Below the pieces are notes generated by a model. The model was not told the DNA's origin and did no database searches. It saw only the letters and a list, made by a program, of their open reading frames with translations. A stretch of 44,645 bases of DNA, taken from positions 1 to 44,645 of the forward strand of contig JAHJAM010000010.1 in the NCBI GenBank assembly GCA_018814025.1, given 5' to 3'. The DNA is from Patescibacteria group bacterium. GTDB taxonomy: Bacteria; Patescibacteriota; Patescibacteriia; UBA9934; GWF2-40-263. The position numbers and the translations under genes are program-made. Shown piece by piece: positions 11,925 to 30,193 of the stretch (the first letter of the stretch is position 1; each line of letters starts with the position of its first letter).

Positions 11925-11938
11925 GACCAGGACCAATC

Positions 11939-11971
11939 AAAAAACCACCTAGCTAAACTAGGCGGTTTTTT
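11939..11971 (+). terminator. Terminator after the CmpB-like gene
   Basis: AAACCACCTAG pairs with CTAGGCGGTTT (one mismatch), followed by T. Its right end touches the encoded CCA of tRNA-Glu, so it may also end that minus-strand transcript. Confidence 0.75.
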
Positions 11972-12045
11972 GGTGACTCCACGGGGAATCGAACCCCGAT
12001 TACCAGGATGAAAACCTGGCGTCCTAACCGTTAGACGATGGAGCC
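11971..12045 (-). tRNA. tRNA-Glu (UUC)
   Basis: A complete cloverleaf on the minus strand. The acceptor GGCTCCA pairs with TGGAGTC, the anticodon stem CCAGG/CCTGG carries loop TTTTCAT with anticodon TTC, and the T-arm has GGTTCGATTCC. CCA is encoded (11973-11971). Its first 22 bases are repeated exactly at 12352-12373, 328 bp upstream, with the GIY-YIG gene in between. The consensus tRNA promoter lies beyond that partial copy (12389-12417), so this tRNA is probably cut from a transcript that also carries the GIY-YIG frame. Confidence 0.96.
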
Positions 12046-12072
12046 ATAATTTGAAATACGGCCTCTTAACTG

Positions 12073-12291
12073 TTATCTTATAATTCCAGACTTTTTTATT
12101 TGAAGCTCTCTTTTTCTAGCTTCAGTTTTTGTTTTGTATTCTTCTGAGTATACCAATCTGTATGGTTGATATGGTTTTGTTGATCGTGTTTTTCCAGAAT
12201 TATGTTCCCTAAGACGTCTTTCTGGATTTTCTGAGATCCCTATATACCACCGTCCACACTCAATACTTTCGATGATATAAAGATAATACAT
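12073..12291 (-). CDS. Single-domain GIY-YIG nuclease
   Basis: About 72 residues forming almost only the GIY-YIG catalytic domain: MYYLYIIES, then RWYIGISENPERRLREHN with the conserved Arg, and the metal-binding Glu in KTEARKRELQIKK. Small YhbQ-type GIY-YIG proteins are common and their in vivo substrate is mostly unknown; others are homing endonucleases. The start is set at ATG 12291 because the domain begins there and GGAAG lies 8-12 bases upstream. An ATG at 12312 would add seven residues. AT-rich composition and position between a truncated and an intact copy of tRNA-Glu suggest recent insertion. Confidence 0.82.
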   Translation of the reverse strand: MYYLYIIESIECGRWYIGISENPERRLREHNSGKTRSTKPYQPYRLVYSEEYKTKTEARKRELQIKKSGIIR

Positions 12292-12321
12292 AATTTCGCT
12301 TCCATTATCCACATAGGCGTC

Positions 12322-12350
12322 TCCGGCAAAGCCGGACCCGGCTCCGCCGG
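12322..12350. repeat. Double-hairpin repeat, copy A
   Basis: TCCGGC-AAA-GCCGGA followed by CCGGC-TCC-GCCGG. The same 30-bp design occurs at 16411-16440 and 30098-30127. This copy lies between the tRNA-Glu fragment and the GIY-YIG gene. Confidence 0.75.
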
Positions 12351-12351
12351 G

Positions 12352-12373
12352 CTAACCGTTAGACGATGGAGCC
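12352..12373 (-). pseudogene. Duplicated 5' fragment of tRNA-Glu
   Basis: A 22-bp exact copy of the tRNA-Glu acceptor 5' strand and D-arm (identical to 12024-12045). After the GGTTAG of the D-loop the sequence changes to the GC-rich double-hairpin repeat. It cannot fold into a tRNA. The consensus promoter at 12389-12417 is placed as expected for a tRNA gene, so this is probably the original 5' end, separated from its body by an insertion or tandem recombination. Confidence 0.85.
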
Positions 12374-12388
12374 GTGATTTGTGGCGAT

Positions 12389-12417
12389 ATAATAACCAAT
12401 CCGACGCTCAATGTCAA
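12389..12417 (-). promoter_or_regulatory. Promoter for the tRNA-Glu / GIY-YIG unit
   Basis: Minus strand TTGACA (12417-12412), 17 nt, TATTAT (12394-12389). The duplicated tRNA fragment starts 15 nt after the -10 box. Confidence 0.75.
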
Positions 12418-16382: not shown

Positions 16383-16500
16383 GTGTCATTCCGACGGAGC
16401 AGTATCGCAGCCCGGCAGAGCCGGGTCCGGCTTCGCCGGATGCGGACGAGGAATCTCTTGACTGATGACGAGAGATCCCTCACTTCGTTCGGGATGACAC
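16383..16500. repeat. Palindromic repeat element between tsaD and tsaE
   Basis: A 118-bp element with 12-bp terminal inverted repeats, GTGTCATTCCGA and TCGGGATGACAC (one mismatch), and inner inverted arms GAGGAATCTC (16448-16457) and GAGATCCCTC (16472-16481). A double-hairpin repeat copy sits inside it (16411-16440). It begins 3 bases after the tsaD stop and ends 12 bases before tsaE. The TGTCATTCC...GGGATGACA plan is that of non-autonomous palindromic elements common between bacterial genes. No coding capacity. Confidence 0.75.
16411..16440. repeat. Double-hairpin repeat, copy B
   Basis: CCCGGC-AGA-GCCGGG directly followed by TCCGGC-TTC-GCCGGA, nested in the palindromic element at 16383-16500. 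Confidence 0.78.
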
Positions 16501-29656: not shown

Positions 29657-30193
29657 ATGTCCAATCGCCACCTTTCCCGCACCATCGCCATGCAAACTCT
29701 CTACCAATGGGATTTTTTAGGCAATGATCAAAAAGATATTAATGCCATGCTGGCTTTTAATCGTGAAGAATTCGCTTCGAATTTTGATGATGGCGGTTTC
29801 GCCGAAGAATTAGTCGCTGGCGTCCTGGCCAACCAAAAAGAAATTGACGAGCTCATTGCTCAGTTTGCGCCGCACTGGCCTTTAGAGTCCCTCACTTTGG
29901 TTGATCGCAATATTTTGCGGCTGGGCATCTACGAATTGAAGTTGTCGCCCAATGTTCCCTCCAAGGTCGCCATCAACGAAGCCATTGAATTAGCCAAGGG
30001 CTTCGGCGGCGGGTCATCGGGCAAATTCGTCAACGGAGTCTTGGGGGCCATCTACAAAGATATGGTTGAAAAAAACCAACTGAAAGATGTGGACAAATCC
30101 GGCGAAGCCGGATCCGGCTCTGCCGGAGAAGACAAGAAAAAAGAAGAAGAACAAATTCCCGCCCCAACACCATCTGAATCCGAAGCTGAATAA
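29657..30193 (+). CDS. nusB: Transcription antitermination factor NusB
   Basis: Binds boxA RNA with NusE/S10 and supports rRNA transcription. Residues 3-140 give the NusB helical fold ([58 protein letters not shown]). Normal length is 130-150; here a 38-residue acidic tail is added. Ten codons of this tail (30098-30127, [11 protein letters not shown] region) are exactly a double-hairpin repeat element in frame. rnc follows after 31 nt. No SD. Confidence 0.95.
30098..30127. repeat. Double-hairpin repeat, copy C (inside nusB)
   Basis: TCCGGC-GAA-GCCGGA directly followed by TCCGGC-TCT-GCCGGA, 30 bp, in frame in the tail of nusB. Same design as 12322-12350 and 16411-16440. Confidence 0.85.

Follow-up and report, generated by a model that had tools for sequence, protein, structure and literature searches.

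A small GIY-YIG nuclease gene within a split and rebuilt tRNA-Glu gene of a Patescibacteria group bacterium, and its counterparts across the phylum

In the assembly of a Patescibacteria group bacterium (GCA_018814025.1, rated 98.85% complete), the single gene that we find for tRNA-Glu(TTC) is preceded by a small nuclease gene and, beyond it, by a second copy of its own 5' end. This raises the question of how a nuclease gene came to occupy an indispensable RNA gene, and of how the tRNA is maintained in its presence. Patescibacteria have tiny genomes, and we know of few mobile elements in them that target essential genes. The window analysed here is a stretch of 44,645 nucleotides (contig JAHJAM010000010.1), and the locus in question lies on its minus strand. 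Read in the direction of tRNA-Glu, it holds a sigma70-type promoter, a dead tRNA copy, the small GIY-YIG gene and the intact tRNA-Glu, with the following parts:

12389-12417, minus strand: displaced native tRNA-Glu promoter of the sigma70 type, score 11/12, 15 nt before the dead copy
12374-12381, minus strand: duplicated 5' flank of 8 nt, part of a 30-nt repeat with 28/30 identical positions
12352-12373, minus strand: dead copy, tRNA-Glu nt 1-22, an exact repeat with 0 expected by chance
12322-12351, minus strand: GC-rich double hairpin of 30 nt, CCCGGCGGAGCCGGG TCCGGCTTTGCCGGA, interrupting the dead copy after nt 22 according to the alignment
12316-12321, minus strand: dead copy resuming, tRNA-Glu nt 23-28 (GACGCC), according to the alignment
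12073-12312, minus strand: GIY-YIG nuclease ORF, matching PF01541
11971-12045, minus strand: rebuilt intact tRNA-Glu(TTC), with no other TTC tRNA-Glu found in the assembly
11938-11972, minus strand: native tRNA-Glu terminator hairpin, an inverted repeat followed by a T run in the direction of transcription

An earlier note on this DNA had reported that the first 22 bases of the tRNA recur exactly 328 bp upstream, with a GIY-YIG frame and a GC-rich double hairpin between the two copies. The repeat is indeed exact and both intervening parts are present, but its extent was understated: it covers 30 nt at 93% identity when the 8 nt of 5' flank (12046-12053 and 12374-12381) are included, the dead copy comprises nt 1-28, and the hairpin is an insertion within that copy. 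A chance origin of the 22-nt repeat was considered and ruled out, as shuffled sequence yielded 0 matches even with three mismatches allowed. Because the intact copy is the sole tRNA-Glu(TTC) gene found in the assembly, it must work and be expressed. The split gene is repaired in the DNA, and splicing is not needed; a search of the window for group I introns gave no match to an Rfam intron family. A tRNA-targeting integrative element, which should show an integrase and a duplicated 3' end, was likewise rejected for the window, where a 79-aa ORF is the only one between the copies and it is the 5' end that is duplicated. A gene for Endonuclease I (PF04231; 12462-13247, minus strand) lies directly upstream of the split locus. 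The end of the contig falls within a 16S rRNA gene (1-153), likely an assembly break.

The consensus promoter that had been noted ahead of the truncated copy is present, with TTGACA at 12412-12417 and TATTAT at 12389-12394 separated by a 17-bp spacer. Sigma70-like sites scoring at least 9/12 were found before 58% of dead copies and 61% of ordinary tRNAs, but only before 16% of rebuilt tRNAs and at 10% of random places (dead versus rebuilt, Mann-Whitney p=3e-6), so that the native promoter has remained with the dead copy. Reading of the intact tRNA through the nuclease gene, as proposed before, would be the simplest route to its expression, although a weaker promoter-like match (9/12) does occur 31 nt upstream of it.

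The same note had placed the module inside a tRNA gene whose 5' end was rebuilt and whose promoter was taken over. This is corroborated by the promoters that precede dead copies at such loci and by an empty site in a same-genus pair, where the tRNA-Glu(CTC) gene carries a decayed element in one genome (G025) and is uninterrupted in the other (G061). In G025, the segment leading from upstream to within the dead copy (L175, 1181-1331) aligns at 82% with the G061 stretch made up of promoter region and tRNA nt 1-21 (L185, 35-184), and the rebuilt tRNA (L175, 1502-1584) matches L185, 156-238 at 97.6%; note that the pair is one locus with a decayed element, other than the window's, compared by upstream flank and tRNA alone. 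For tRNA-Glu(TTC), the intact gene of congeners G066 and G010, which lack the element, is directly preceded by a similar promoter. The comparison of relatives suggested in the note uncovered an empty site for another such element, whereas the window's own locus had no close enough relative among the genomes compared. A CmpB-like neighbour gene was tried as synteny anchor and discarded, as it is present in only 6 of 60 genomes, that of the window included, and its position with respect to tRNA-Glu varies, so that it yielded no empty site for the window's locus. In the congeners of G038 the flanks were found with no tRNA-Glu between them.

The nuclease ORF encodes 79 aa from a GTG or 72 aa from an ATG at 12291 and matches PF01541 with E=1.1e-17. 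The residues Y5, Y16-G18, R26, H30 and E62 are invariant in an alignment across 16 homologues, as befits a member of the GIY-YIG superfamily. It consists of a single GIY-YIG domain, the proteins of the family measuring 72-95 aa, and its closest solved relatives are UPF0213 (1zg2, E=9e-13) and the structure-specific nuclease SLX1. With regard to a kinship to phage Seg proteins, matches to PHROG homing endonucleases were weak (E 3e-4), and tblastn against the phage collection gave no match to the nuclease at 1e-5.

To what extent the arrangement recurs was assessed at about 90 loci that were picked by similarity to the window protein with tRNA context ignored; genome and viral collections were searched by DNA pattern, there being too few conserved stretches for an alignment search. 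A disrupted copy of the severed half of the adjoining tRNA was found on the far side of the nuclease gene in 52 of 65 tRNA-adjacent placements, scoring clearly above shuffled controls, and the other 13 showed no recognisable tRNA copy. By our own estimate, which assumes about 45 tRNA genes per Mb, far fewer than 1% of genes should have a tRNA end at most 60-70 nt away on their own strand. The split layout occurs at tRNAs for Glu, Gln, Tyr, Ser, Leu, Trp, Asn, Gly, Ala, Lys, Thr, Ile, Met, Val and Cys, with a near-fixed spacing, and the nuclease ORF often ends inside the tRNA, its stop codon lying within the first ~15 nt. The genome of the window itself has it also at tRNA-Ile (L004) and at tRNA-Asn (L005), where the dead copy holds two double hairpins. 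When the whole phylum was sampled, 15 of the 29 top loci lay at a tRNA 5' end and 10 carried a recognisable copy, and among named records the tRNA-Glu form was found in Candidatus Uhrbacteria and other Patescibacteria.

One case had been named in advance as speaking against insertion, namely tandem tRNA-Glu copies without a GIY-YIG gene. Such a case exists at contig C6 (L037; G000:C6:25300-26700), where two tandem 109-nt units, each consisting of dead tRNA 1-22, a double hairpin and a short spacer with a 22-aa frame, precede tRNA-Glu(CTC). The same hairpin, however, is found there at the same D-loop position, and these copies look like decayed or tandemly repeated derivatives.

The restoration of a 5' end had been regarded as unusual. 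This form (dead 5' part, nuclease, intact tRNA) is real and is the commoner one, yet it is not unique: a mirror-image form, with intact tRNA, nuclease and dead 3' part, rebuilds 3' halves at Cys, Ser, Gln, Val and Leu loci. The dead copies span roughly nt 1 to 22-52, or nt 11-54 to the tRNA end, so that the two forms commonly overlap within or close to the anticodon arm. Entry at the D-arm, as previously proposed, is in keeping with the hairpin position in the window's dead copy, but family copies reach to about nt 28-52 and hairpins sit in several loops; the point of entry may be the anticodon arm instead. Many dead copies do not reach the anticodon loop or have their breakpoint elsewhere (nt 10-13, 20-22), and there is consequently no single clean insertion point. 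At three loci (L146, L113 and L073) elements are stacked at one tRNA, which implies that a rebuilt tRNA can be hit again or that the unit can be amplified. The acceptor strands of dead and intact copies are identical in 39 of 42 cases and in the remaining 3 the intact copy is favoured, so that a test for chimeric acceptor stems does not distinguish donor from native halves.

Judging by a tree of 65 nuclease proteins, the lineages appear to follow tRNA isotype more than host. Isotype requires 25 changes on the tree as compared to 44.9 after shuffling (0 of 200 shuffles as low), while host family within the Glu group requires 10 as compared to 11.6 (31 of 300 as low), at the limited resolution afforded by proteins of this size; the Glu lineages span many host families. 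Note that the tree is built on few alignment columns and a similarity-based sampling. The clustering would be expected if the nuclease recognises the DNA of a single tRNA, or if the replacement half has to be compatible, and could in part stem from vertical inheritance or cargo compatibility rather than from DNA recognition.

The double hairpins are a second dispersed repeat family beside the nuclease elements, and it is striking how strongly they are concentrated in dead tRNA halves. In 37 of 52 dead copies there is an insertion of 15 nt or more, nearly all of these being self-complementary, with a mean paired fraction of 0.70 as compared to 0.33 for random segments. They cluster at the second/third anticodon base (near nt 35/36), at nt 20-23 and at nt 8-15, with one at nt 56. 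The hairpin type of the window occurs 15 times in its own genome and in 12 of 60 genomes searched, with 0 hits for a reversed-pattern control. Hairpins also lie in frame inside protein genes, where they read SGxAGSGxAG, a distribution that, genes included, is that of dispersed, near-identical palindromic repeats of the RPE/DHE-like kind. Within the window, a double hairpin of the same family (30099-30126) encodes 10 residues near the C-terminus of a NusB-like gene (29657-30193), and another (16412-16439) is part of a longer structured intergenic stretch between tsaD-like and tsaE-like genes. The dead tRNA-Trp copy at L128 (G027:C8) has a 113-nt structured insertion in its anticodon loop that is unlike the short double hairpins. 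A role as folding insulators was examined in silico and found no support, as removal of the hairpins leaves the pairing of the rebuilt tRNA unchanged (mean acceptor pairing 0.06 with and 0.02 without them). In the model, equilibrium folding favours the dead 5' strand, a preference that is probably an artefact of the multiloop model. A weaker suggestion is that the double hairpins might keep the dead half from serving as tRNA, cleavage target or partner in recombination.

What, then, is the unit at the tRNA-Glu locus? In our judgement it is probably a small selfish element of the homing-endonuclease type that resides inside a tRNA gene and carries a replacement for the half that it severs. The nuclease would cut element-free alleles in the D or anticodon arm, and repair of the break would copy in the element together with the replacement tRNA half from a filled allele, for which homology of 20-45 nt per side would be enough. 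A single transcript would then start at the resident promoter and span dead copy, nuclease and intact tRNA, with the tRNA released by processing. This reading draws on the exact repeat, the severed halves at 52 of 65 placements, the mirror 3' forms, the pair of filled and empty sites, the displaced promoters and the isotype-linked tree, and further on the sole TTC tRNA-Glu, the stacked elements, the conserved catalytic columns and the analogy to SegB. Against it stand the scattered ends of the dead copies and the question of self-immunity, as the presumed target is present again in the rebuilt tRNA. A wider version, which we hold to be quite unlikely, sees phylum-wide minimal elements whose nuclease rebuilds tRNAs from either side and in which the nuclease or its break also seeds double hairpins into loops of tRNA-folded DNA or RNA; if true, one system would join tRNA homing with the spread of coding palindromes.

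Segmental amplification dispenses with insertion altogether: a free-standing GIY-YIG nuclease breaks the DNA beside a tRNA, short-homology recombination duplicates the segment, and tandem units decay to partial copies. Tandem units do exist, both as the 109-nt repeats of L037 and as stacked GIY-YIG genes at L146 and L113, and T4-type SegB is reported to amplify its tRNA segment via microhomology shared by the 5' region of tRNA-Tyr and the 3' region of segB (PMC13096335). Nevertheless we consider this unlikely, as the dead copies normally have neither the other half nor the tRNA terminator, the native promoter precedes the dead copy while the native terminator follows the intact one, the congener has a single uninterrupted tRNA, and the mirror-image 3' forms suit insertion better. 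Alternatively, the double hairpin could be the primary invader that kills tRNAs, with survival where a second copy adjoined and the GIY-YIG gene as a passenger or hairpin mobiliser. The hairpins in most dead copies, clustered as they are near nt 35/36 and 20-23, and the same-family hairpins dispersed elsewhere and in frame inside ORFs would be accounted for; yet most of these loci have a GIY-YIG gene, while the hairpin varies in type and is sometimes absent (e.g. L080), and hairpin loci without GIY-YIG are mostly not tRNAs, which makes a hairpin-first origin improbable. That a tRNA was partially duplicated by accident and decayed beside a housekeeping gene of the UPF0213/YhbQ-like type agrees with the relationship of the protein to UPF0213, but we regard it as extremely unlikely, chance being excluded by the recurrence over isotypes and genomes, the near-fixed spacing, the two orientations and the isotype-specific lineages.

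A selfish element of the homing type at this position would share features with several known systems. Group I introns occupy the anticodon loops of bacterial tRNAs, the same region of insertion, whereas here function is restored in the DNA by a duplicated half. Integrative elements with attachment sites in tRNA genes use integrases and usually restore 3' ends; they likewise interrupt the tRNA and restore it by an element-borne partial copy, but the present element is about 330 bp, has no integrase, and its 5' halves are commoner. Endonuclease inserts of fungal mitochondria, such as that in Allomyces atp6, carry a replacement gene end and thus also bring a substitute for the severed part, albeit in protein genes and not in bacterial tRNA genes. 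The double-hairpin elements of Allomyces mtDNA and the Rickettsia palindromic elements resemble our hairpins in form, as GC-rich double hairpins of ~30 nt that are dispersed and in part in frame; those of Patescibacteria, by contrast, accumulate in dead tRNA halves next to GIY-YIG genes.

The nearest functional analogue is SegB. This GIY-YIG homing endonuclease has been reported to cleave inside tRNA genes and to favour the inheritance or amplification of the region that holds them (PMC13096335), an analogy that supports segmental amplification as well. For SegB of T4/T6 and other free-standing GIY-YIG homing endonucleases, PMC3984707 cites Brok-Volchanskaya 2008. In both systems the GIY-YIG gene adjoins tRNA genes, but SegB lies beside phage tRNA clusters, whereas here a single-domain protein of 72-95 aa is encoded inside a split tRNA gene, carries a replacement half, and is found in bacterial chromosomes at many isotypes. 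From the same bacterial radiation, insertions in CPR rRNA genes have been described in which GIY-YIG ORFs occur sparsely in non-intron insertions, were judged to be outside homing, and favour the tops or bases of stem-loops (PMC11270868); that work concerns rRNA and does not mention tRNA, the target here. Among openly licensed papers we found none that joins GIY-YIG and tRNA (gene) with Patescibacteria or Parcubacteria, and elements of this kind seem to have escaped description so far. They illustrate a way into an indispensable RNA gene for which a nuclease gene needs no self-splicing intron, offer many natural filled sites and some empty ones for homing studies, and account for many stray small GIY-YIG genes and tRNA fragments in Patescibacteria genomes, where tRNA 5' fragments and split promoters should not be taken for annotation noise.

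Some loci show further arrangements. At L142 (1237-1488, G036:C5) a group I intron interrupts the anticodon loop of a tRNA-Asn which a GIY-YIG element has also rebuilt, a hint that this loop is used by both kinds of invader. The tRNA-Glu at L039/L220 (G035:C95) is flanked on both sides, with a 5' half and hairpin upstream and a 3' half downstream that has the same hairpin in its anticodon loop. Finally, L038 (701-1020), L054, L055 and L175 carry non-coding GC-rich inserts of ~190 nt downstream of tRNA-Glu, sometimes in tandem. Each of these inserts closes with a copy of tRNA nt 55-75, and they may be a third kind of element that copies a tRNA end.
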